From: a bacterium
GTDB taxonomy: Bacteria > UBP6 > JAFGXH01
DNA: 22,818 nt
Direction of reading: 5' to 3'
Assembly: GCA_027064085.1 (NCBI GenBank)
Contig: JAMOQH010000007.1
Location: forward strand, 1-22,818
Part shown: one piece after another, positions 1-21,284 of the stretch
Layout of the letters: every line of letters starts with the position of its first letter
How positions within the stretch are numbered: the stretch's first letter is position 1
Notes under the pieces: generated by a model
What the model was told of the DNA's origin: nothing
Database searches by the model: none
The model's input: the letters and a program-made list of their open reading frames with translations, nothing else
Position numbers and translations under genes: made by a program

Positions 1-115
1 ATACGGGACAGTTGAAGAAGTATTTAGAGGCTGATTGGTAGTGATGGCCGTTTCAACCTGCTATATGCAGTTTTACACGGTAAATTTAACCTTGGTTTTA
101 AATTTAGAGGGGAAT
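1..115. other. GC-richer leader before the cassette, possible tail of an upstream gene
   Basis: The first 100 bases contain 39 G or C, against 24 in the next 100, so this stretch has a different composition from the genes after it. Two short plus-strand frames could be tails of an upstream gene. One ends at 39-41 (residues TGQLKKYLEADW then stop). The other is open from 28 to 126 and includes DGRFNLLYAVLHGKF. I do not recognise either. A neighbouring gene cut by the window edge, possibly frameshifted, or a recombination scar are both possible. No promoter is evident. Confidence 0.3.
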
Positions 116-583
116 ATGGAAAGTAGTTTTTATGAATTTTCACTTGAAATGAAAAAAGATTCAAAGATTTTATTTGATAATAAAGCCTTTCATAATTCTG
201 TATATTTAGCAGGATATGTATTGGAAGGATATATTAAGTTGATTTTACTAAAATTTGGTTATGAATATAAAAATATTAAAAAACATTTAAATGATAGAGA
301 ATTAATGAATTTGCTAGGTAATCTGATTTCAATATATCCAAATGTATTTGAATATTCTATTTTGTTAAAAACAAATAAAAAAAATCCTAAATTACTACTT
401 AATGGTGGTAGAGATGACCAGTTTGAAGCAAAATGGAATGTAAGTGATAGATATAATATCAAGCAATGGTCAAAAACTGATAAATCTAAAAAAGATAATC
501 GTTTTTATTCAGAAAAAATACAAATGGAAATAAATAATATAGAAAAAGAAATGTTAAAATTAAAATTAGATGGAGTTTTATAA
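116..583 (+). CDS. HEPN-domain-like protein, 155 aa
   Basis: This small, probably cytoplasmic, alpha-helical protein resembles the HEPN superfamily. Near the N-terminus it has YLAGYVLEGYIKLIL, matching the usual HEPN pattern of a long helix with LAGYALE(C)xLK, and later KWNVSDRYN, matching the W-x-x-x-x-RY pattern of these domains. The RxxxxH ribonuclease motif of toxic HEPN proteins is not visible, so a binding or scaffold role is as likely as RNA cleavage. The frame is open from base 35, but I start at ATG 116 because AGAGGGG lies just upstream and HEPN similarity begins there. Its stop overlaps the next start by one base (TAATG), implying translational coupling and partnership with the two-P-loop ATPase. 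The precise function is unknown. Confidence 0.6.
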   Translation: MESSFYEFSLEMKKDSKILFDNKAFHNSVYLAGYVLEGYIKLILLKFGYEYKNIKKHLNDRELMNLLGNLISIYPNVFEYSILLKTNKKNPKLLLNGGRDDQFEAKWNVSDRYNIKQWSKTDKSKKDNRFYSEKIQMEINNIEKEMLKLKLDGVL

Positions 584-3102
584 TGAATTTTTTAGATATT
601 TTAGAGAACTTAGAAAGTATATTAAAAAAAGAAAATGAATTAGATTATTACATCATAAATAATATTTATGGAAAAAATTTAATTTTATTGGAATCTGATA
701 GATATTCAAGAGATAAATTGCTAGAAATTAAAGTAAAATTAGAAAACAAATTTAAAAATGCTATTCAAGATGTGATTTTTGAAGATAACCGTTTGGCTTC
801 TGAAATAAAAAATATTTGTCAAAAAAACTCTGTAACTCATCGTAATATAAGTTATTCTGCATGGAATAAAGATAAAATAAATCCTAATAAAAACAAAATT
901 GTTAAAAAGGTAATTGCAGGTTATTCCTTTAAAGGAGGAATGGGGCGAAGTATAACTATTGCTTATTTATCTCATTATTTTTATTCTTTGGGTAAAAAAA
1001 TTGTTATTTTAGATTGTGATTTTGAAGCTCCTGGTATTTCAACTTTATTTTTTAATAAAGGAAAACGAAAACATAAGGCTGGAATTTTAGATTATTTAAT
1101 TGATTGTAATATAAATGATAACCTTCCATTAGATGATTACTTTTTGGAGTTAGAAGCAAGTAAAAAAGGTGGTAATATTTATTTGTTTCCATCAGGAATA
1201 GATTATAAAACAAGCTCTTATTTAAATAAGATATCAAAAATTGATTTTAACTCATTAAGCTATATTAAAAAGATGTATGATTTAATAGAAAATATAAAAA
1301 ATCATCCAATTTTAAAACCTGATATTATTTTTATTGATTTAAGAGCTGGAATAAGTGAGTCTAATGGAAATTTTTTAAGTAAAATTTCTGATTTGAATTT
1401 ATTATTTTTTAATAGTGAAGAACAAAATGAAGAAGGATTAGAAATTATTTTAAATAATATTAATATAGAGTCTAGCATATTGTTAAATTCAGGAATTAGA
1501 TTTAATGATAAGGAATTAAGAGATAAGAAACAAAGCAAATTAAAGCACTTTATTAATTCTTTAAAAATAAAAGGTGAAAATAACTTAAAAGTTATAGAAA
1601 TTCCCTTTAACCAAAAAATGCTTGAATCAAATATTTCAGATGTAGAAGATGGTTTTATAAATGATTTAAAAATGATAATTAAAAATAAATATTTTGAAAT
1701 TAATTCAAAACCTATTAACAGTGAAGTAAATTTAAAAGAAATATTTAAAAAATTAGAAAAAGAATTTAGAAAAATTATAGGAAAAGAAAAGTTTTTAACT
1801 GAAAATGATTTAAAATACTTTTATTTTAAGGATGATATACAGCTTTTAATAAATGAACAAAAATTTTTAATTTTAGGTCCTAAAGGAAGTGGTAAATCAA
1901 CTCTTTTTGAAATATTTAAGCAAAACTTCAAACCTATTTTAAATAAATTAAATGTTCATAAAAATTCTTATCTAGTTGGCTTTTCTAATGATAATATTAA
2001 TGATATATCTTCAGAACAGATAATTAACATTAATGGTAAAGCAGGTAAAAAAAATAAAAACATTAACATTAAGAGATTTTGGAAATATTTGACATTATTT
2101 CAACTAGAAAATAAATTAAATATCCAAACTCCAGTTTTCAAGAATATTAATGATATTGCTAGCAAAATTACAAACAATGAGATATCTATTTTAGTAGATG
2201 AAAGCTTAAGAGATTTAAATATAGATTTACTTAAAAAAGAAAATGTTTATACATTTCTCTATGATGAATTAGATGTCAATATTCCTGAAGACTTAAGAAT
2301 TCATTTTATTTCAAATTTGATATCTTTTTGGCAAGAAAATATATATAAATATACTCAAATTAGAGCAAAAATATTTTTGAGGAATGATATATTTGAATTA
2401 TTAAAAATAGAAAATAAAACACATTTAGATATCAATAAATTTGAATTAATATGGAGTAAAAAAGAAATTTTATCTTTAATATTAAAAATAATTATTGCAA
2501 CTTTAAGTGAAAAAGAAATTAAAAATTTAGGTTTAGATTTAATTGTAAAATCGTATGTTAATTACGAAATTATTTCGGATGATGAAAAAGTAAATTTAGC
2601 AATTAGAAAATTATTTGCTAAAAGAATTAGTTCCAAGGGATTATTTATGGATGATTGGATAATAAAATATTTATCTGATTCAAATAATGTTATTACTCCG
2701 AGGACTATTTATAAATTCTTATCTGAAATAATTTCTAATGAAATGGAAAAATTATCAGAGAAGGATAGTTCCCGAGATATAATATTTTTTAATTTTATAA
2801 AAAATTATAAAATAATACATAAAAAGGTATCTTTATATAGGTTAGAAGAGTATATAAATGAATATCCCAAGAATAATAAGTATATAAATAAAATAAAAAG
2901 TTTAGGTTATGCAAATTTTATTTTTGAAGATTTTAAAAAAGAGTATACTGAAAAAAATAAAGCAGATAAAACTATACAAAAGTATTTACAGGACTTGCAA
3001 AAAACTGGTTTTTTAAAGTATGAAAAACAAACGAAAAAATATAGATTAGCTGAGATATATACTCCTGCATTAAATTTAAAGAAGAATAAAAGAGGAAAGT
3101 AA
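583..3102 (+). CDS. Two-P-loop ATPase: KGGMGR ParA/MinD-like domain fused to a second P-loop domain, 839 aa
   Basis: The protein has two nucleotide-binding regions. After an N-terminal helical stretch (about 1-110), a deviant Walker A motif KGGMGRS lies at 117-123, followed by ILDCDFEAPG and a Walker B-like IDLRAGIS around D252. This is the layout of the KGGVGR-variant branch of ParA/MinD ATPases. A second, classical P-loop GPKGSGKST lies at 432-440, with an acidic YDELD stretch around 565. This half resembles large P-loop ATPases found in defence loci, such as the Sll1717-like group. The C-terminus (about 760-825) looks like a winged helix. The gene is coupled to the HEPN gene by a one-base overlap. 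An energy-using sensor or effector-control role is inferred from these domains and the PglZ/BrxL neighbours; no activity can be assigned. The second half might play the BrxC-like ATPase part in this locus. Confidence 0.6.
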   Translation: MNFLDILENLESILKKENELDYYIINNIYGKNLILLESDRYSRDKLLEIKVKLENKFKNAIQDVIFEDNRLASEIKNICQKNSVTHRNISYSAWNKDKINPNKNKIVKKVIAGYSFKGGMGRSITIAYLSHYFYSLGKKIVILDCDFEAPGISTLFFNKGKRKHKAGILDYLIDCNINDNLPLDDYFLELEASKKGGNIYLFPSGIDYKTSSYLNKISKIDFNSLSYIKKMYDLIENIKNHPILKPDIIFIDLRAGISESNGNFLSKISDLNLLFFNSEEQNEEGLEIILNNINIESSILLNSGIRFNDKELRDKKQSKLKHFINSLKIKGENNLKVIEIPFNQKMLESNISDVEDGFINDLKMIIKNKYFEINSKPINSEVNLKEIFKKLEKEFRKIIGKEKFLTENDLKYFYFKDDIQLLINEQKFLILGPKGSGKSTLFEIFKQNFKPILNKLNVHKNSYLVGFSNDNINDISSEQIININGKAGKKNKNINIKRFWKYLTLFQLENKLNIQTPVFKNINDIASKITNNEISILVDESLRDLNIDLLKKENVYTFLYDELDVNIPEDLRIHFISNLISFWQENIYKYTQIRAKIFLRNDIFELLKIENKTHLDINKFELIWSKKEILSLILKIIIATLSEKEIKNLGLDLIVKSYVNYEIISDDEKVNLAIRKLFAKRISSKGLFMDDWIIKYLSDSNNVITPRTIYKFLSEIISNEMEKLSEKDSSRDIIFFNFIKNYKIIHKKVSLYRLEEYINEYPKNNKYINKIKSLGYANFIFEDFKKEYTEKNKADKTIQKYLQDLQKTGFLKYEKQTKKYRLAEIYTPALNLKKNKRGK

Positions 3103-3160
3103 GTAGTATTATGAATATGAGACTATCTTGGTTTAGGTACTTATTAAAAAAAGGAAAAAC

Positions 3161-3316
3161 ATGACAAATAAACCAACAAATAACTACCGCACCCTGATAA
3201 ATCAAATTTCAGAAGCCTATAATCCTAATGCACTGTTTGCTATTCTTACTATAAACTCTAAACTATACTTTACTGTTTCTATGAAAAATGCTAAACTTAA
3301 CTTTAGTGTTTTGTAA
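3161..3316 (+). pseudogene. 51-codon remnant resembling the N-terminus of DUF1016/YhcG-type nucleases
   Basis: ATG 3161 follows AAGGA by five bases and opens a 51-codon frame ending TAA at 3314-3316. Its first 20 residues (MTNKPTNNYRTLINQISEAY) closely resemble the start of DUF1016/YhcG PDDEXK nuclease-domain proteins, which are about 350 residues long and common in defence islands. After EAYN the similarity stops, and the rest (from PNALFAIL to FSVL) is not recognised. I read this as the 5' end of a gene whose body was lost in a rearrangement. The segment is GC-richer (32 of 100 from 3161) than its neighbours. It could still be translated, since start and ribosome site are intact. The family match is from memory. 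Confidence 0.45.
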
Positions 3317-3326
3317 TAGAGGGCTT

Positions 3327-4523
3327 ATGTTACTTGATAAATTAAAAGAAAAACAAAGACGGCTTGTCAATAAAGTAAAATCTATTAATTATGAAAGACA
3401 TGAATTAGAGTTTATTAAATCAAATGAAAAATTAATTGCCTTAATTGGAAGTAGAGGAGTAGGTAAAACTACTGTTTTGCTACAATATGCTTTATTATTT
3501 GATATTGATGAGCTTTTATACTTTAGTGCAGATGACATTGGTATTGCCAAAACTGGTCTTTATGAAATTGCTGAAGAATTTTCAAGTTTAGGTGGAAAAG
3601 TTATTGTTATTGATGAGATACATCAGTTTAAAGACTGGGCAAAACATATAAAAAATATTTATGATGATTTTGATTTAAAAATTAGGATTGGTGGCTCATC
3701 TATGCTTAAAATTTTAATGCAAGGTTATGATCTAAGTAGAAGGATTTTAATAAAAGAGTTAAGAAACTTAAGCTTTAAAGAGTTTTTTGAAATAAATGAA
3801 AATATTAGCCTAAAATTATATAGTTTAGATGAAATTATAGAAAATCATAATGATATATCATTTGATTTAATAAATCGTTATCCTAATTTATATAGAGAGT
3901 GGAAAAGATATTTAGAAATGGGCTGTTATCCATATTTTTTGAGCTCTGCAACAAAAGAAAATTTTTATAGTAAGTTGTTTAATTCTATAGAAAAAATTAT
4001 TTATGAGGATATTCCAGCAACAAATAAAGTAAAATATGATTCTTTAGTTGTTTTTAAAAAGCTTATATATATCCTTATCTCCTCTAGAGTTCCTTTTCAA
4101 GTAAATGTAAGTAATCTCGCCAAAGAGCTAAGTATTAGTGAGCCAAGTTTATACATTTACATGGATATATTAAATAAAACAGGTCTTTTTAAATCTATTA
4201 AAAAATATTCTAAAAAACTCTCAAGAAAACCAGCTAAGTTATACTTTGATAATACTAACTTGCTACATGCAATTGCTTTTGATATGTCTACAGTAGTAGA
4301 AATAGGTACGGTTAGAGAAACTTATTTTGTTAATATCTTTAAAGATATTTATTATAGTGATATTGGTGATTTTAGAATCAAGGATTATATTTTTGAAGTA
4401 GGTGGAAAAAATAAAGATTTTCAGCAAATAAAAAATATAAAAAACAGTTTTTTAGCTATTGATACAGATACAACAATTAATAAAAGAAAAATCCCATTAT
4501 GGTTATTTGGCTTTAAATATTAA
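3327..4523 (+). CDS. AAA_14/DUF4143-family ATPase, 398 aa
   Basis: This is a stand-alone ATPase of the AAA_14 plus DUF4143 type. Walker A GSRGVGKT lies at 41-48, Walker B VIVIDEIH has its acidic pair at D96/E97, and a sensor-like RIGGSS follows. The second half has the DUF4143 character: a winged-helix-like segment (NLAKELSISEPSLYIYMDIL) and then KLYFDNTNLLHAI and a late region resembling the degenerate nuclease fold of this family. Length is normal (about 380-430). A frame is open from ATG 3288, but ATG 3327 is preferred because AGAGGG lies just before it, 3288 has no ribosome site, and the family starts near MLLDKL. Such ATPases are common in mobile and defence regions, with poorly known function. 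It precedes pglZ on the same strand and may be cargo or part of the system. Confidence 0.75.
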   Translation: MLLDKLKEKQRRLVNKVKSINYERHELEFIKSNEKLIALIGSRGVGKTTVLLQYALLFDIDELLYFSADDIGIAKTGLYEIAEEFSSLGGKVIVIDEIHQFKDWAKHIKNIYDDFDLKIRIGGSSMLKILMQGYDLSRRILIKELRNLSFKEFFEINENISLKLYSLDEIIENHNDISFDLINRYPNLYREWKRYLEMGCYPYFLSSATKENFYSKLFNSIEKIIYEDIPATNKVKYDSLVVFKKLIYILISSRVPFQVNVSNLAKELSISEPSLYIYMDILNKTGLFKSIKKYSKKLSRKPAKLYFDNTNLLHAIAFDMSTVVEIGTVRETYFVNIFKDIYYSDIGDFRIKDYIFEVGGKNKDFQQIKNIKNSFLAIDTDTTINKRKIPLWLFGFKY

Positions 4524-4543
4524 AATAAATAGGAGAAATAACT

Positions 4544-4618
4544 TTGATAATAAAAAAGAAAAAAATGAATATTGATTTAGAGGAGATATTGATAAATTAT
4601 TCACTATTGGAGAAATAA
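4544..4618 (+). other. Possible 24-codon leader ORF before pglZ
   Basis: A TTG at 4544 lies eight bases after AGGAG (4531-4535) and opens a 24-codon frame ending in TAA at 4616-4618, directly abutting the pglZ ATG at 4619. An internal ATG at 4565 gives 17 codons. The ribosome site and the stop/start abutment suggest a translated leader or the tail of a lost gene. In DNA this AT-rich, a short frame like this can occur by chance. There is no recognisable homology. Confidence 0.2.
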
Positions 4619-6856
4619 ATGATTGATAAATGGTTTAAAAAAGACCTTGAAACGGCTTATGAATATAAAAAAGTCAGTGTCTTTATTGATGAAAGCAGAG
4701 AATCTGAATTTTTACTTAATTTTTTATCTTCTGATATTAAATTATTCAAGGGTATTAATAATGAAATAGATGAACTTGATGTAAAGTATCAAATAGAAAA
4801 AGAAAATAGTGATAAAAAGTATTTAATATATACGAATACAGCAAAAGATAAGCTTAAATTTATAAGAGAATATTGTGAAACAGAAAGTTTTATTGAAATA
4901 AATAATTTAGCTGTTTACATTAGAGAGCATTTGAATAAACTTAATATAAATTTAAATCTTTCAGATAAAGATATTATTTTTGCTAGTAAAATAAGTGTAG
5001 GAAAAGATGGAGCTTATTGGAAAGATATTCAAACTTATGGGAAAGATAAAATTTTTAATATTAAAGAAGAAATTTTAGTATTACTGGAAAGTTCAAATGA
5101 TTTTAAAAATAGATATGATGATGAGATGTTAAAGGATTTTTATCGTAAAATAAGTGATTTTATTGATTATCCACATAATGATAGTTTTGATTTTAAGGTT
5201 TTGGCTCGTGAAACTGCTAAATATATGTTTAATCTTATTATAAAAAATGAATTAAATAACGAATGGAGTGAAATATATAAAAAACTTTTAAATTCAAAAA
5301 GTCATGAGGAAAGTTTAAAAGAATATTTAGAAGTATATGAAAAAACTATTTTAAATGGAAGTGAAATTAATATTTGGAGTATTATCCCTAATCATCCTTT
5401 TTCTGAGATAGATAAAAGATGGCTTGATAAAATAATAAATGAAATGAAGAATAGAAAAAATTTAGATAATTATATTGAAAAAATAAAAAATAGATTAAAA
5501 AATAAAAATATTCTAAAATTAATAAATATAGATTTTTGGGATTCCCTAATAATATTATTAACTTTTGATGATGGAAAAATAGCAAAATTAGACAGTTTAG
5601 ATAAATGTATTGAGTATTATAAAAATGAATTTTATAAATTAGATAATGCAATGGATTTTTTATATAAAGAATTTTTAAATAATAGTGAAATTATTATTCC
5701 TATACAAGAAAAATATCGTAATTTTTTAGATATATTTTTAGATAAATGGTTTAAATATTTTAATCAGTATAAACAAAATCAAACAGGTGTTTTACAAAGA
5801 ATTATTAATGAAAATTCGGATAAAAAGATTGCAATTATTGTTGCTGATGCTTTAAGTTATGTTATTTCAAAAAACATTATAAATAATGGTAAATTAAAGA
5901 TTTATAAATGTATTGAAGATGTAATTTTATGTGATATCCCATCTGAAACAGAAAATAATATGAGTCAGATATATATTGATACCGGAATAGTTGAATCTAT
6001 TCATAAAAAAAGAGAAAAGTACTTATTATCAAAAAATAGTAATGTTGAATTTATGAAAATAGAAGATGTTAATCAAAATATTAATCAAGCTATGTATTTA
6101 ATATGTACTCATAAAGATATTGATAGCATTGGAGAAGAGTTAGACCATAATTTAATTAATTATTTTTCAAAAATAGAAAGGGAATTATCTCAAAAAATAA
6201 AACTTTTATTAGAAAGTGGGTATAATAAAGTTTATTTAATTAGTGACCATGGTTTCGTTTTTACTGGAAATTTAAGTGATTCAGATAAAATCAATGTTAA
6301 TTTTAATGGCGAGTTAAACAAAAGAGAAAGGTATATAAGGTCTGTTGAAAAACAAAATATAGCGAGTAATTTAATTGAAGTAAAAAAAGATTATAATGAA
6401 TATAAATATTTATATTTTGCTAAGTCTATAAGTCCATTTAGTTCGAGAGGAAAATATGGTTTTAGTCATGGAGGACTTTCACCACAAGAGCTTATAACCC
6501 CTTTTGTTTCTTGGGAATCTAATCACGATAATAATGATTTAAAATTAAATATTATAAACAAAGAAGTTTTAAAAAATGTAACAGGTAATTTATTTAAAGT
6601 TATTATTAAAGCAAATTCTGTTGATAATTTATTTTCTATGAGTAGGAAAATTAAAATTATCAACTATTTTGGAAATAAAGAAGTGAGTAAATCAGATATT
6701 ATAACAATTAAAAAAGGTGAAAAAATAGAAAAAGAGTTTGAATTTGATAAGTTTAATGAACTTAAACTTATCATTTTTGATGCTGAAAGTAACGAGCAAT
6801 TAGATTTTGTTATTGTTAGGAAAAATAATGATAGAGATTTAAGTGGGCTTTTATAG
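4619..6856 (+). CDS. pglZ: PglZ-domain alkaline-phosphatase-fold protein (BREX component), 745 aa
   Basis: PglZ proteins are core components of BREX and Pgl phage-exclusion systems and share the alkaline phosphatase fold. The diagnostic blocks are present in order: AIIVADALSYVIS with the metal-binding Asp at 410; CTHKDIDSIGEELDH; LISDHGFVF with D543/H544; and GFSHGGLSPQELITPFVSW with H617. A C-terminal beta-rich tail follows. The N-terminal 350 residues are helical and not recognised beyond being PglZ-like. At 745 residues it is shorter than the roughly 830-850 typical of type 1 BREX PglZ. The start is supported by GGAG six bases before the ATG. BrxL follows after ten bases, so the two are almost certainly co-transcribed. 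No BrxB, BrxC or PglX is seen in the window, so the BREX subtype is undetermined. The biochemical activity of PglZ in defence is unsettled. Confidence 0.88.
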   Translation: MIDKWFKKDLETAYEYKKVSVFIDESRESEFLLNFLSSDIKLFKGINNEIDELDVKYQIEKENSDKKYLIYTNTAKDKLKFIREYCETESFIEINNLAVYIREHLNKLNINLNLSDKDIIFASKISVGKDGAYWKDIQTYGKDKIFNIKEEILVLLESSNDFKNRYDDEMLKDFYRKISDFIDYPHNDSFDFKVLARETAKYMFNLIIKNELNNEWSEIYKKLLNSKSHEESLKEYLEVYEKTILNGSEINIWSIIPNHPFSEIDKRWLDKIINEMKNRKNLDNYIEKIKNRLKNKNILKLINIDFWDSLIILLTFDDGKIAKLDSLDKCIEYYKNEFYKLDNAMDFLYKEFLNNSEIIIPIQEKYRNFLDIFLDKWFKYFNQYKQNQTGVLQRIINENSDKKIAIIVADALSYVISKNIINNGKLKIYKCIEDVILCDIPSETENNMSQIYIDTGIVESIHKKREKYLLSKNSNVEFMKIEDVNQNINQAMYLICTHKDIDSIGEELDHNLINYFSKIERELSQKIKLLLESGYNKVYLISDHGFVFTGNLSDSDKINVNFNGELNKRERYIRSVEKQNIASNLIEVKKDYNEYKYLYFAKSISPFSSRGKYGFSHGGLSPQELITPFVSWESNHDNNDLKLNIINKEVLKNVTGNLFKVIIKANSVDNLFSMSRKIKIINYFGNKEVSKSDIITIKKGEKIEKEFEFDKFNELKLIIFDAESNEQLDFVIVRKNNDRDLSGLL

Positions 6857-6866
6857 GATATAAAAT

Positions 6867-8918
6867 ATGATAATGTTAAATGAATTGGATAAAAAATTAT
6901 TGGAATATTTTAAAGGTTTTGTTGTAAAAAAAGATTTAGTTAGAGAGATAAAAGTGGGGGCAAATGTTCCTGTTTTTGTTTTAGAATATCTAATAGCAAA
7001 TTCATGTTCTACAGAAGATGAAGAAAAAATTAAACTTGGTATGCAAAATGTAAAAAATATTTTATCAAAACATTATGTTAATCCGGAAGAAAGTGAATTA
7101 ATTCACTCGAAAATAAGGGAAATAGGTTCTTATAAAATAATTGATAAAATTTCTGTTTCCCTCGATACAAAAAAAGATAAATATTGGGCAAATATTCAAA
7201 ATAGTAATATAAAAAATGCTAATATTGATGACGAACTTGTGAGAACCCACGAAAAGATGATGATGGGAGGAATTTGGGCTATTATTGATATAGAATATGA
7301 TCCAGACATTAAAATTGGTAGTACTATTTATCCCTTTATTATTAGAGAAATAAAACCAATTCAATTATCTTCATTTAGTAACTATAAGTTAAAAGAAAAT
7401 AGAGCTAAGTTTACAAAAAATGAATGGATAGATGTTCTTTTAAGAAGTAGTGGTTATGAACCCGATTCGGAAGATATTAATAAAAGAATTAAAATGTTAT
7501 TACTTTCAAGATTGCTACCTATGGTTGAATCAAATTTCAATTTTGTTGAACTTGGACCTCGCTCAACAGGAAAATCATTTGTTTTTAAAGAGTTAACTCC
7601 CTATGCGGTTCTAATTTCGGGGGGGCAGGGAACTGTTGCGAAATTATTTGTACATGGAAGTACAGGTAAAGTAGGAGCTGTAGGGCAGTGGGACGCTATT
7701 TGTTTTGATGAGGCGACAGATAAAATATTTAAAAATAGAGACTCTGTTCCATTAATGAAAGATTATATGGAGTCAGGTTCATTTTCTAGGGCTGGTTCTG
7801 GTGGTGAAATTACTGGGGTTGCTTCTATAATCTTAAATGGAAATATAAATCAACCTGTGGATGTTGTACTACAAACTTCTAACTTATTTAGCCCTTTATC
7901 CGATGAAATTAACTGTGATACTGCTTTTTTGGATAGATTACACTTTTATTTGCCTGGTTGGGAAATGATTAAGTTTTCTCCAAATCATTTTACTTCTAAT
8001 TTTGGTTTTAGTACTGACTATTTTTCAGAAGTATTAAAATCACTTAGAAAAGAAAATTATACCAATGCAATAGAAGAATATTTTTTACTAGGAAATCACT
8101 TAAAGCAAAGAGATGTTAAGCCGGTAAAGAAAACGGTATCCGGGTTTATAAAATTGTTACATCCTGATGGAAATTATACTAAAAACGATATTAAAGAATA
8201 CTTAGAAATTGCTCTTGAAATGAGAAGAAGAGTTAAAGAGCAGTTAAAAAGAATAGGTGGAATGGAATTTTGGGATACAAATTTTTCCTATATTGATAAA
8301 GATACACAAGAAGAATTTTTTGTTAGTTTACCGGAAGAAAAAGGAAACAATTTGATAGAGAATTCTCCTTTAAAACCTGGAGTTTGTTATACTAGTACTA
8401 GTGATAATGAAAATATCTCATTAATTAGAGTTGAGGCTGTAACCATAAGTGGTACCGGGAAATTAAATATAACAGGAGTAAATAATACAATAATAAAGGA
8501 AAATATAAAAAATACTTATCAATACATAAGAGGAAATGAGAAAAGTATTTTAAGTAGTGAACATTCATTAAAGAATTTTGATATTACAATACAAATAAGA
8601 ACTATACTTGGTGGAACTATTGCCTCTGGAATTGGTTCGGCTGTATATATTGCAATTATTTCTTCTATTTATAAAAAAAGACTTAAGCATGGATTATCAG
8701 TTATTGGAAATATCTCAATTGGTGGAGTACCTGAAAGAGCAAGTGATTTTAGTAATCAAGTTTCAATGTTATCAGAAAATGGATCAAAATTTATACTCTC
8801 GCCAATGGATAACTTACAAGAATTATCTAGTATTCCTCCTATGATTTTAGGAGATAGTGATATTTCTTTTTATCCAAATTCTCAGATTTTATTGCAAAAA
8901 AGTATTTTTATGGATTAA
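6867..8918 (+). CDS. brxL: BrxL, BREX Lon-like AAA+ protein, 683 aa
   Basis: BrxL is the Lon-like AAA+ component found with PglZ in BREX types 1 and 4. The N-terminal region is highly characteristic (KKDLVREIKVGANVPVFVLE; KIREIGSYKIIDKISV; MMMGGIWAIIDIEYD). The AAA+ core has Walker A GPRSTGKSF at 230-238, Walker B CFDEATD (D281/E282), a sensor-like ILNGNIN and a downstream arginine segment FLDRLHFYLPGWE. The C-terminal Lon-like domain (about 520-680) retains a Ser at 591 (GIGSAV), but an ungapped match to E. coli Lon places Gln631 where the catalytic Lys belongs, so proteolysis is doubtful. The likely role is nucleic-acid binding or translocation, as proposed for this family. AGGA lies eight bases before ATG 6867; ATG 6873 is an alternative start. 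It is the last gene of the cassette. Confidence 0.92.
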   Translation: MIMLNELDKKLLEYFKGFVVKKDLVREIKVGANVPVFVLEYLIANSCSTEDEEKIKLGMQNVKNILSKHYVNPEESELIHSKIREIGSYKIIDKISVSLDTKKDKYWANIQNSNIKNANIDDELVRTHEKMMMGGIWAIIDIEYDPDIKIGSTIYPFIIREIKPIQLSSFSNYKLKENRAKFTKNEWIDVLLRSSGYEPDSEDINKRIKMLLLSRLLPMVESNFNFVELGPRSTGKSFVFKELTPYAVLISGGQGTVAKLFVHGSTGKVGAVGQWDAICFDEATDKIFKNRDSVPLMKDYMESGSFSRAGSGGEITGVASIILNGNINQPVDVVLQTSNLFSPLSDEINCDTAFLDRLHFYLPGWEMIKFSPNHFTSNFGFSTDYFSEVLKSLRKENYTNAIEEYFLLGNHLKQRDVKPVKKTVSGFIKLLHPDGNYTKNDIKEYLEIALEMRRRVKEQLKRIGGMEFWDTNFSYIDKDTQEEFFVSLPEEKGNNLIENSPLKPGVCYTSTSDNENISLIRVEAVTISGTGKLNITGVNNTIIKENIKNTYQYIRGNEKSILSSEHSLKNFDITIQIRTILGGTIASGIGSAVYIAIISSIYKKRLKHGLSVIGNISIGGVPERASDFSNQVSMLSENGSKFILSPMDNLQELSSIPPMILGDSDISFYPNSQILLQKSIFMD

Positions 8919-17215: not shown

Positions 17216-17380
17216 GGTTTTTCTTATTATTTTTTTAATACAACCGATATAACAAATAGGCTATTAATTTTTTTGTGAAATCAGTAGCAAAGTATGAAGT
17301 ATATTAATTTATAATGCTTCTTTTATGGGTAAAAGTGGTTTTGAGTATGTAAGGTTTTATTTATGGTATTAGGAGGAGAT

Positions 17381-18094
17381 ATGAGAATTTTATTGTATTT
17401 TATTCTTGGAATGTTTTCGGTTAATGTTTTTTCAATTGATTATAAAATAATTGATACAGATGATATAAAAAAATTAATTGACACAAAGGCAGATTATGTC
17501 TTGGTTGATTCCCTTACAAAGATACATTATGGAGTAGAACATGTTCCAACGGCTATTAATATTCAAAACAATCAAGTAAAAAAGAATGTAAATTTACTAC
17601 CAAAAGATAAAAATAAAATGTTAATTTTTTATTGTATGGGACCCAAATGTTTTTTTAGTAAAAATAATGCAAAACAGGCTCTTGAATTAGGTTATAAAAA
17701 TGTTTATGTTTGGGAAAGTGGTATTCCTGATTGGAAAAATAAAGGATATGATACTGAAAAAGGAGGAGGATTCTTGCCAATGGCTGATTTTAATAAAATT
17801 TCTCCCCAAAAATTAAAGAAAAATTTAAATAAAGTAATTCTTGTGAGTTTATTTTCAAAGAAGGAGTTAAGTGGAATAATAAATAATAGTAAAATTATAA
17901 ATATTGTAGATTTTACTCAAGAATATTCAAAATTGCCAAAAGATAAATTAATTGTTTTTTATTCCTTAAATGGAAAAATAGATAAAATTGCAATGAAATA
18001 TTTGCTTTCTAAAGGATATAGGTTAAGTAACTTATATTTTCTAGATGGTGGTATTAATGCATGGAAAAAACTTGGCCTAAAAATAGAAAAATAA
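17381..18094 (+). CDS. Exported tandem-rhodanese protein, 237 aa
   Basis: The N-terminus (MRILLYFILGMFSVNVFS, then IDYK) is a probable Sec signal peptide, placing the protein in the periplasm. Two rhodanese folds follow. The first (about 22-120) has VLVDSLTKIHYGVEHVPTAINI and an active loop around Cys85 (YCMGPKC, with a second Cys at 90), then LELGYKNVYVWESGIPDWKNKGY. The second (about 140-235) keeps LDGGINAWKKLG, but its loop reads FYSLNGKID with no Cys, so it is probably inactive. Rhodaneses carry sulfur as a Cys persulfide; the substrate here is unknown. ATG 17381 is preferred over an in-frame ATG at 17363 because a full AGGAGG (17371-17376) lies just before it and the signal peptide starts there. 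It stands alone between dnaE (divergent) and the Rpn-like gene. Confidence 0.82.
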   Translation: MRILLYFILGMFSVNVFSIDYKIIDTDDIKKLIDTKADYVLVDSLTKIHYGVEHVPTAINIQNNQVKKNVNLLPKDKNKMLIFYCMGPKCFFSKNNAKQALELGYKNVYVWESGIPDWKNKGYDTEKGGGFLPMADFNKISPQKLKKNLNKVILVSLFSKKELSGIINNSKIINIVDFTQEYSKLPKDKLIVFYSLNGKIDKIAMKYLLSKGYRLSNLYFLDGGINAWKKLGLKIEK

Positions 18095-18195
18095 TCTTCA
18101 AGAATTAAATTAATTATTTAGCTATATATGGTAAAAATTAGTATTTTAGGGTTTTCAAGTTTCAATGATATAGTTGTAAATATTGAAGAATATCA

Positions 18196-18238
18196 AGTGG
18201 AGTTTTGAAAAGAATTTCTAATAGTTTAAAAAATCTTG
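18196..18238 (+). repeat. 43-bp direct repeat, copy 1
   Basis: This copy matches 19278-19320 at 42 of 43 positions; the difference is G at 18212 versus T at 19294. It starts AGTGGAGTTTTG and ends AAAAAATCTTG. Its last bases form the start of the -35 hexamer of the promoter for the Rpn-like gene, and the A-rich run just before resembles an UP element. Confidence 0.9.
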
Positions 18239-18263
18239 CATAATCATAAATATGGGTTATAAT
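18236..18263 (+). promoter_or_regulatory. Sigma70-like promoter for the Rpn-like gene
   Basis: TTGCAT (18236-18241) and a perfect TATAAT (18258-18263) are 16 bases apart, 22 bases upstream of the ATG at 18286. The TTG of the -35 box is the last triplet of the direct repeat. Confidence 0.6.
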
Positions 18264-18285
18264 GTATTGTAAGCATGGAGGCAAT

Positions 18286-19260
18286 ATGAAGGTAATTCGT
18301 TTTGATTGGGCAATAAAATATATACTAAGAGATAAAAAGAATTTTGATATTTTAGAAGGTTTTTTATCAACTCTTTTAGATAAAGATATAAAAATCCTTG
18401 AAATCCTTGAAAGTGAAAGCAATCAGGAAGAAGAAACTATTAAATTTAACAGAGTAGATTTAATGGTAAAAAGTGAAAATGAACAATTTATTATTGAAAT
18501 ACAAAACTCAAGAGAAGTTGATTATCTTGAAAGAATACTTTTTGGAGCTAGTAAAGTTATAGTAGAAAACTTAAAATTAGGTGAAAAGTATGGAAACATT
18601 ACTAAGGTAATATCAGTTAATATATTATATTTTAATCTTGGTAAAGGCGAAGATTATATATATCACGGTAAAACAGAATTTACGGGCTTAAATAAAAAGG
18701 ATAAACTTGTTTTTAAAAGGAGGATTTTTATTGATGATAAAAAATATAAATTTGAGGAAAAAAATATATTTCCTGAATATTATTTAATAAGAACGGAAAA
18801 ATTTGAAGAAGTAATAGGAAGTCCAATAGATGAATGGGTTTATATGTTTAAAAACGGAGAAATTAAATCAGAATTTAAATCAAAAGGAATGAAATCTGTT
18901 AAAAAGAAACTTGATTATTTAAAAATGAGTGAAAAGGAAAGAAAAATTTATAACCGTTACTTAATGAATTTAGCAAGAGAAAACAATATTATAGAAACAG
19001 CAGACCAAGATGGATACATTAGAGGGCTAAAAGAGGGGGAAAAGAAAATAAAGGAAGCGGAAAAGAGAGAAAAAGAAGCAGAAAAGAGAGAAAAAGAAGC
19101 AGAAAAGAGAGAAAAAGAAGCAGAAAAGAGAGAAAAAGAAGCTAGGAAAAAGGTAATAGATTTAGTAAAATTCTTAATAAATTCTAAAACAGATATTAAC
19201 AAGATTATGGAATTAACGGGTTTATCAAAAGAAGAAATAAATAATATTAGAAAAAAATAA
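18286..19260 (+). CDS. PD-(D/E)XK nuclease/transposase-family (Rpn-like) protein, 324 aa
   Basis: The N-terminal 250 residues match the Rpn/PD-(D/E)XK transposase-family group: FDWAIKYILRDKKNFDILEGF at the start, the catalytic-type Asp58 in NRVDLMV and the E-x-Q of FIIEIQNS (E71, Q73), then YLERILFGASKVI. Proteins of this group (related to E. coli RpnA) are DNA endonucleases linked to recombination and often occur in many copies per genome. The C-terminal part (about 245-290) is a charged helix built of AEKREKE heptads. It ends in a small region, TDINKIMELTGLSKEEIN, resembling a helix-turn-helix. The frame is open from 18262, but ATG 18286 has GGAGG four bases upstream and begins the family similarity. 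The gene is bracketed by 43-bp direct repeats. Confidence 0.8.
   Translation: MKVIRFDWAIKYILRDKKNFDILEGFLSTLLDKDIKILEILESESNQEEETIKFNRVDLMVKSENEQFIIEIQNSREVDYLERILFGASKVIVENLKLGEKYGNITKVISVNILYFNLGKGEDYIYHGKTEFTGLNKKDKLVFKRRIFIDDKKYKFEEKNIFPEYYLIRTEKFEEVIGSPIDEWVYMFKNGEIKSEFKSKGMKSVKKKLDYLKMSEKERKIYNRYLMNLARENNIIETADQDGYIRGLKEGEKKIKEAEKREKEAEKREKEAEKREKEAEKREKEARKKVIDLVKFLINSKTDINKIMELTGLSKEEINNIRKK
19057..19140 (+). repeat. Four 21-bp tandem repeats encoding AEKREKE heptads
   Basis: Four head-to-tail copies of a 21-base unit (begin GCAGAAAAGAGAG; the first has GCG for GCA) each encode AEKREKE. Being seven codons long, the unit can expand or contract without shifting frame and would lengthen or shorten a charged helix or coiled coil by whole heptads. 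Near-identity at DNA level suggests recent slippage or duplication. Confidence 0.95.
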
Positions 19261-19277
19261 ATTTATGCTGTATAGCT

Positions 19278-19320
19278 AGTGGAGTTTTGAAAATAATTTC
19301 TAATAGTTTAAAAAATCTTG
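19278..19320 (+). repeat. 43-bp direct repeat, copy 2
   Basis: This is the second copy of the repeat at 18196-18238 (42 of 43 identical), 1082 bases downstream and 17 bases after the stop of the Rpn-like gene. Its final TTG begins the -35 hexamer of the promoter of the outer-membrane protein gene. Confidence 0.9.
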
Positions 19321-19346
19321 ATTATATAAATTAAAGTCTTTATAAT
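19318..19346 (+). promoter_or_regulatory. Sigma70-like promoter for the TPR/beta-barrel gene
   Basis: TTGATT (19318-19323) and a perfect TATAAT (19341-19346) are 17 bases apart. The -10 box ends 24 bases before the ATG at 19371. As at copy 1, the repeat supplies the A-rich upstream tract and the first three bases of the -35 box. Confidence 0.65.
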
Positions 19347-19370: not shown

Positions 19371-21284
19371 ATGTTTATTATATTTTTATTTATCTCCATT
19401 TTTAATACTAGTACTTATAGTAATATAAATTATGAAGCTAATTTTATACAAGGTAATTCTCAATTCATAAATAATCCTCAAAAAGCCATAGAATTTTATA
19501 AAAAATCATTGAAAGTTAAAGCAACTCCTTTAACTTATGCCAAAATAGCTGATTGTTACAAAAGACTAGGTGATTTAGAAAGTGCAAAAACTTATTATGA
19601 TAAAGCAATAGAAGTAGAAGAATTTAAAGGATTTGGAAATGCAGATATGTATTATAGATATAGCTTATTTTTAAATGAAATGAAAAATTATACCAAAGCT
19701 TTAGAATATATTAATTTGGCAATTTCTAAACAAAATAATACAAGTTATGTAATTTTAAGAGATAATATTCAAAAAAATATTAATAATTTAGAAGCTGAAA
19801 AAACAGAAAATGCAGATGAAGAAATTATTCAAGATGATGATGAAGATTGGACTACAGAAAGTGATTTAGAAGATAATTCATTTAAAACTTCTACAATTCT
19901 TAGAGCTAATATTACTACTGATTTTTATCAAGATAGAGTATTAGAAAATGGACTTGAAGATGCAAGTGAATTGAGTAATTCAATGTTTTTAGAACTAGAT
20001 CATCAGTATTCAGAAAATATGAAAATTATGCTTTCTAGTAGGTTATATTGGCGTTTATTAGTTGAAAGAAATGAAGATAATACAGCTTATTATTTTTTTA
20101 ATGGAGAAAAGCCTAAAACAATATTTGATTATGAACTTGAAGAATCATACATTGATTATAAATATAATAGTTTTTCTTATAGAGTAGGGCAACAGTATTT
20201 TAAATGGGGTGAAAATATTGCATTTTCAAGAAGTGATATTATTAATCCAAATGACTTTAGGGATTCTGTTATTCCCGAACTAGATAAAAGAAAAGTTGCT
20301 GTATTTTCTTTAACGGGGGGATATAGCTTTGCTGATATAGCGAAATTAACTCTCGCATGGATACCTTTTAGATACAATCCTAAAATTTCATATTGGGGAA
20401 GAGATTTTGCGTTATTACAACCTTCAAAAGAAATTGATACTTCTCTTATTAATAATTTTATTTCTCAAAATATAGAAGATGATTTACAATCTTTGGGTAT
20501 GACAACTGATAATCAAAAAAAAGATTTTACAGATAGTTCTATAGCATTAAATTTATCATTTTCTATAAAGAGTTTAAATGCTTCTTTTGTTTACTATTAT
20601 GGATTTCAAGAACTTCCAGAAATAACTATGGATAGAGATTTAAAAAAGTTGCTTTTTTATTTACTTAGTGGAGGAACAGAAGAGGCTGTATTGGCTCCAT
20701 TATCAAGTAGTTTAGCAAATAAATACATAATGGGGCAAAATATTGCAAGCTCTAAATTTACTAGATACAATCATTTAGCATTTTCTGCTTCTTTGCCTGT
20801 TAGTAGCTTCATATTAAAGCTTGATGCTTCATATTCTCCTAAAAAGTTATTTTATTCTGATATTGATACAACAAACGAAGAAACAACTCAAAATAGCTTT
20901 AATCCCATTTATAAAAAAGTAGCTAATTATACTTTAGGACTAGAATATCAATATGCTGGAGATAAATTATTAATAGATTTAGAATATTTTGGTTCTTATA
21001 TTTTAGATGATAATAAAGAAGAATATTTTTATGATAGAAAAAACAAAATGGGTATATTTTCATTAATTAAATGGAATATTATAAAAGATAATTACAGTTT
21101 AATACTTCTTGCTAATTATAATTTCTTTTTCAAAGACTATCTTGCCACTATTAGGTTTACAAAACATATAGGTAAATTAGATGTAAGTGCAGGTTATAAT
21201 CATTTTGGTGGAGATAATGATACTCCTATAGGAAGATATGATAAAAATGATGAATTTTTCTTGGGTATAAAGTATTATTTTTAG
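19371..21284 (+). CDS. Outer-membrane beta-barrel protein with N-terminal TPR domain, 637 aa
   Basis: A signal peptide (MFIIFLFISIFNTSTYS) leads into two or three TPR repeats (about 30-145; e.g. LTYAKIADCYKRLGDLESAKTYYDKAIEVE) and an acidic linker (about 145-172, EEIIQDDDEDWTTESDLED). The rest (about 175-637) looks like a beta-barrel. It has many alternating aromatic/polar strands, a YRVGQQYFKWGENIAFSRSD segment followed by NPNDFRD resembling DUF1302-like barrels, and a terminal LGIKYYF whose final Phe is a BAM recognition feature. The TPR would sit in the periplasm as a docking surface. No transported substrate can be read from the sequence. AGGAG lies four bases before the ATG. It is probably monocistronic from the repeat-associated promoter. 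Confidence 0.75.
   Translation: MFIIFLFISIFNTSTYSNINYEANFIQGNSQFINNPQKAIEFYKKSLKVKATPLTYAKIADCYKRLGDLESAKTYYDKAIEVEEFKGFGNADMYYRYSLFLNEMKNYTKALEYINLAISKQNNTSYVILRDNIQKNINNLEAEKTENADEEIIQDDDEDWTTESDLEDNSFKTSTILRANITTDFYQDRVLENGLEDASELSNSMFLELDHQYSENMKIMLSSRLYWRLLVERNEDNTAYYFFNGEKPKTIFDYELEESYIDYKYNSFSYRVGQQYFKWGENIAFSRSDIINPNDFRDSVIPELDKRKVAVFSLTGGYSFADIAKLTLAWIPFRYNPKISYWGRDFALLQPSKEIDTSLINNFISQNIEDDLQSLGMTTDNQKKDFTDSSIALNLSFSIKSLNASFVYYYGFQELPEITMDRDLKKLLFYLLSGGTEEAVLAPLSSSLANKYIMGQNIASSKFTRYNHLAFSASLPVSSFILKLDASYSPKKLFYSDIDTTNEETTQNSFNPIYKKVANYTLGLEYQYAGDKLLIDLEYFGSYILDDNKEEYFYDRKNKMGIFSLIKWNIIKDNYSLILLANYNFFFKDYLATIRFTKHIGKLDVSAGYNHFGGDNDTPIGRYDKNDEFFLGIKYYF

Follow-up and report, generated by a model that had tools for sequence, protein, structure and literature searches.

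The stretch of DNA analyzed here (22,818 nucleotides, hereafter the window) raises the question of how a single nuclease gene came to stand between two almost identical pieces of intergenic DNA. The bracketing of an Rpn-like gene by near-perfect 43-bp direct repeats, put forward in the original prediction, could be confirmed. The two copies, located on the forward strand at 18196-18238 and 19278-19320 and set 1082 bp apart, are identical at 42 of 43 positions, with a G/T mismatch at position 17 as the sole difference (94% identity in a 49-bp register), and the enclosed gene is a member of the Rpn family. The flank score of this rpn locus was 40, compared to a maximum of 13 in the controls. The left copy runs on leftward into host intergenic DNA, and the right copy begins 18 bp past the rpn stop codon and adjoins the promoter of the next gene on its right. 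We consider it probable (roughly 70%) that a single-gene rpn cassette with its own promoter was inserted between a rhodanese gene (17363-18094) upstream and a gene with TPR and outer-membrane-barrel-like features (19371-21284; the barrel gene) downstream, both on the forward strand, and that 43 bp of target DNA were duplicated, the left copy being read as the target duplication.

The assignment of the enclosed gene to the Rpn family is based on matches to the curated models PF12784 (E = 5e-21; 75.9 bits, cut-off 27.4) and TIGR01784 (E = 2e-18; 66.9 bits, cut-off 52.1). The gene (18286-19260, forward strand) likely starts with the ATG at 18286 and not at 18262, where the longest open reading frame (ORF) begins, as a good Shine-Dalgarno sequence (GGAGG) stands at 18277-18281 of the same strand. 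With residues numbered from the start of the 332-aa ORF (18262), the segments VDLMV and IEIQ at residues 65 and 78 fit the D..E-x-Q columns which are invariant in other members, so that D66 and E79-I-Q81 can be assigned by position as candidate PD-(D/E)XK catalytic residues. An in-frame 21-bp tandem repeat (19050-19140, forward strand; KREKEAE) marks the C-terminal region, which is typically variable in Rpn, and no internal Shine-Dalgarno-led start for an RpnS was found in the gene. In its family, its candidate catalytic residues and its variable, repeat-bearing C-terminus the gene resembles the known Rpn/YhgA-like proteins (PF12784, PF04754; Kingston, 2017; Zhong, 2023), whose genes are gained and lost singly, as also appears to be the case here.

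The borders of the inserted unit can be approached from both sides. As originally claimed, each repeat copy ends in the TTG of a −35 box, belonging to TTGCAT-16-TATAAT (18236/18258) on the left and to TTGATT-17-TATAAT (19318/19341) on the right, and the 98% identity of the two copies ends abruptly at this TTG. The rpn-type promoter/operator with its conserved spacer (18236-18264, forward strand) starts at the same point. At the other end, a tail behind the rpn gene (19261-19277, forward strand) is similar to an rpn 3′-end remnant on contig C73; this similarity extends past the rpn stop codon and fades where the right copy begins, save for a later match to TTTAAAAAATCT. As the rpn-type promoter starts at the one border and the C73 similarity fades at the other, the inserted unit would reach from about 18236/18239 to 19277 and consist of the −35 box, the promoter, rpn and a tail of approximately 17 bp after the stop codon. 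The sequence on C73 (L028 6766-6935) is itself an isolated rpn 3′ end with a matching 3′ flank, either a remnant or an orphan C-terminal piece.

The fading of the C73 similarity on entry into the right copy supports an insertion, and so does the left part of the repeat. This part falls within an element (GTTTCAATGATA..TGGAGTTTTGAAAA; 18157-18211, forward strand) that is dispersed in intergenic DNA and recurs at contigs C53 and C92 without rpn. This element is complete only around the left copy and takes in approximately the first 15 bases of the repeat. On the other hand, a 9-base stretch ahead of the rpn −35 box is also present at the rpn promoter of contig C157, so that a portion of the left copy may be linked to rpn. 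Orthologs of the barrel gene in the two genomes of the same family that were compared (the relatives found being uncultivated genomes) lie in different neighborhoods without rpn, and these genomes revealed no empty site, which counts against the insertion reading.

The position of each copy directly upstream of a promoter could also mean that the repeat is plain shared regulatory DNA, i.e., a pair of similar upstream elements which co-regulate rpn and the barrel gene. We regard this as very improbable, as a pattern search allowing up to three mismatches found only these two copies in the 3.65-Mb genome (none in the reversed control), the identity stops at the TTG, and the rpn promoter core, which begins at exactly this last TTG of the repeat, is absent from the barrel-gene promoter (19318-19346, forward strand). 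The proposed co-regulation of both genes is thus not supported. With two copies in the genome a genome-wide regulatory element was rejected, and further copies beside other Rpn-like genes did not turn up in this search either.

The rpn-type promoter, on the other hand, does recur. TTGCATAATnnnAAATATnnGTTATAAT, which comprises the promoter with its conserved spacer, has 12 matches in the genome at up to three mismatches versus one in the control. Ten of them score 28-39 bits on a position weight matrix built from these same ten sites, and a scan of 185,026 positions on both strands of the contigs covered gave nothing else above 11 bits; the barrel-gene promoter scores −15 bits. Several rpn-type genes thus share this promoter sequence, and the barrel gene does not have it. 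The promoter directly precedes no fewer than seven PD-(D/E)XK genes, which belong to three families: PF12784 rpn genes on five contigs (C7, which holds the window, C157, C30, C110 and C144), a PF04754 rpn gene on C20 and an AAA-ATPase_like/PDDEXK_9 gene on C141. An eighth is probably represented by the site at the end of contig C8, as the leader behind it resembles the one preceding the rpn gene of C57. Two more sites precede an orphan C-terminal fragment of Rpn-like type (C69) and a methyltransferase gene just past an rpn (C130), while the remaining two matches (C154, C159; three mismatches) look like chance. The presence of several families under one promoter with a conserved spacer differs from the known Rpn/YhgA-like systems and makes these genes candidates for a common regulon. 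The conserved promoter of these ten sites contains an imperfect dyad, ATAAYCC-N7-GGRTTAT. Upstream of rpn-type genes a short leader ORF (M-I-[IT]-V-T-I..LSSSSLG..) was noticed at L161 (contig C57) and L038 (end of contig C8), in which base pairing of CCTCCTTG with two CAAGGAGG copies might allow translational attenuation; the minimum-free-energy fold of the leader includes this pairing, yet is no better than that of shuffled sequences.

Contig C20 of the same genome contains a second rpn gene with the same layout. It belongs to the other family (PF04754), carries the same rpn-type promoter and lies between two copies of an 86-bp repeat. This repeat is 100% identical between its copies, unrelated in sequence to the window repeat, and stops 3 bp before TTGCATAAT of this gene; at both loci the −35 box marks the beginning of the cassette. 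The left copy (C20:9684-9769) includes the stop codon of an upstream DnaJ-like gene, and the right copy (C20:8608-8693) includes the last rpn codons as well as the last 25 bp, with the stop codon, of a convergent downstream gene (434 aa). The copies thus contain 3′ ends from two separate host genes, and for both of these genes to be intact the 86 bp must have been their original junction. Judging from this arrangement, the repeat must be host DNA that formed a single junction and was duplicated at the insertion. We infer that the window repeat arose in the same way. In 784 kb of this genome, about a fifth of it and enriched for rpn loci, seven non-coding direct repeats with a spacing of 0.4-6 kb were found. 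Only two of the seven are 98% identical or better across a length of 43 bp or more, and these two flank the rpn genes of the window and of C20 (for the window pair the identity is 98% in the 43-bp core and 90% in the 62-bp gapped alignment as printed). The C20 gene (L180 530-1450) also has a strong internal AGGAGG-5-ATG at codon 241, likely an RpnS-type antitoxin start. On contig C14, a 51-bp direct repeat with 88% identity (L204 14504-14553 and 15759-15808) surrounds the gene of a 317-aa putative lipoprotein, which is not a nuclease.

Two direct copies could alternatively stem from a tandem duplication of a repeat-rpn unit, after which the second rpn was lost and only its first 43 bp were left before the barrel gene. 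Tandem duplication is the account given by Zhong et al. (PMC10327210) for rpn arrays. Such arrays were seen on plasmids of Persicobacter and Wolbachia, the latter with a 33-bp remnant of the unit start past the first rpn, and the occurrence of TAAAAAATCTTG both in the window and at the C157 rpn promoter would fit as well. Nevertheless, this scenario appears unlikely to us, as it requires two events and a clean end at the −35 box, no rpn coding remnant is present past the right copy, and the C20 locus, whose repeat includes the termini of two separate host genes, would stay unexplained.

If the rpn cassette was indeed inserted, it would have entered the intergenic DNA of the rhodanese/barrel pair, and 43 bp of the target would have been doubled, with one copy on each side. 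The barrel gene would have kept its promoter because the right copy makes the target complete again as far as this promoter. The likeliest route would be the repair of a target break with a stagger of tens of bases (43 or 86), or a template switch, in the course of which rpn DNA would have been taken in as filler; Rpn itself may conceivably have had a role in the break. The short homology TAAAAAATCTTG, shared with the C157 rpn promoter over 12 bp, may have guided the left junction. Known break-repair and template-switch insertions are similar in having filler between duplicated target ends, a variable length and optional short homology, but differ in that the filler here is twice the same class of nuclease, each time from its promoter on. 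Of the original idea that rpn arrived together with promoter-proximal DNA of the barrel gene, the arrival as a unit fits the sequence, whereas the repeat is better understood as host DNA duplicated at the insertion. When the flanks are joined from repeat to repeat, TTGATT-17-TATAAT is kept before the barrel gene. Loss of rpn by slippage between the copies, leaving the barrel promoter intact, is hence geometrically possible; it would be rare and would restore the site.

Long flanking repeats are not a general property of rpn loci. A flank score of at least 16 was reached by seven of 73 PF12784 loci compared to eight of 334 neighboring ORFs (Fisher p = 0.009), and several of these seven loci are tandem arrays or lie on repeat-rich plasmids. 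None of the eight PF04754 loci (E. coli K-12 and seven plasmids; enterobacterial, Arsenophonus and Vibrio replicons) had flanking repeats, and altogether long ones are absent from most of approximately 80 rpn loci elsewhere. Within this genome no long flanking repeats occur at the rpn loci of C157, C30, C57, C144 and C15, nor is such a repeat present at the motif-bearing loci with enough downstream sequence (C157, C30, C144, C141, C69). A repeat of the 43-bp type as general rpn flank was consequently rejected. Zhong et al. (2023) likewise found no target-site duplications at rpn genes (PMC10327210). Long target duplications are thus no rule for rpn genes, yet there are two clear cases here. 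A self-spreading unit, as initially proposed, receives no support from these data, as the window repeat is absent at other rpn loci, only C20 has a long (and different) one, and most loci elsewhere have none. Few Rpn relatives were found in viral contigs. On a Parabacteroides plasmid (L096 1829-1904 and 3023-3223) rpn stands between two copies of an intergenic stretch that resembles a terminator; the right copy is interrupted by approximately 120 bp, and an older target duplication is possible.

The lengths of the duplications also bear on a special form of the insertion explanation, which overlaps with the reading preferred here, namely that Rpn mobilizes itself by nicking the strands tens of bases apart, so that its own gene fills the break and a variable length of target is duplicated. 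Two Rpn families in one genome, both with cassettes that start at the −35 box and with long target duplications, are in agreement with this, and the non-specific endonuclease RpnA increases recombination independent of RecA (PMC5350276). The repeats are, however, absent at most rpn loci, a comparison of the rpn copies revealed no common or conserved element ends beyond promoter and ORF, and a transposase function of Rpn was considered highly unlikely by Zhong et al. (PMC10327210); we therefore judge self-mobilization to be doubtful. The broader idea that PD-(D/E)XK genes of unrelated families move as promoter-first cassettes at staggered breaks of their own making, with long variable duplications and under one repressor, is likewise improbable.

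Insertion sequences are comparable to the present case as one-gene units between direct repeats of target DNA. Their constant duplication length is not seen here (43 versus 86 bp, absent at most rpn loci), and neither a transposase nor defined inverted-repeat ends were recognized; such long and unequal duplications are unlike those of a transposase and speak against an insertion of this kind as well as, to some degree, against the insertion explanation itself. Integron gene cassettes share the single gene between repeats, but the window repeat has no attC-like features, and a search for a strong hairpin in it gave a folding no better than that of shuffled sequences. By eye, two GC-rich repeats resembling integron attC sites surround a HicB/HicA-like gene pair on contig C17 (L207 2245-2800), and a similar repeat pair surrounds TIR and TPR genes on contig C18 (L208).

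The genome is an apparently metagenome-derived draft (3.65 Mb in 195 contigs, 94.7% complete), and several of its rpn copies lie at contig ends, which is a sign of trouble with repeats. That the whole arrangement is an assembly artefact is still hardly credible, as rpn runs without a break into the sequence on either side. As the repeat copies differ at one base, read paths can separate them. At its other end the window contains a defense-like cluster (35-8918) with a PDC-M28A-like protein, PglZ, BrxL, a fusion of KGGVGR-type and Sll1717-type ATPases (PDC-M28) and an AAA/DUF4143 ATPase (PDC-S01); no BREX methyltransferase was recognized among the scanned proteins.

The spread of rpn genes is of interest because these genes come and go singly, although insertion scars had not been described for them before. 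The reported genes lack target duplications, and this makes the scars of 43 and 86 bp described here unexpected. Two clear scars in one genome would define exactly where the cassette begins (at the −35 box) and where it stops (0-17 bp behind the coding end), and would supply a testable model of insertion. In addition, the near-identical promoter in front of three nuclease families suggests that many acquired toxic nucleases may be kept under one control.
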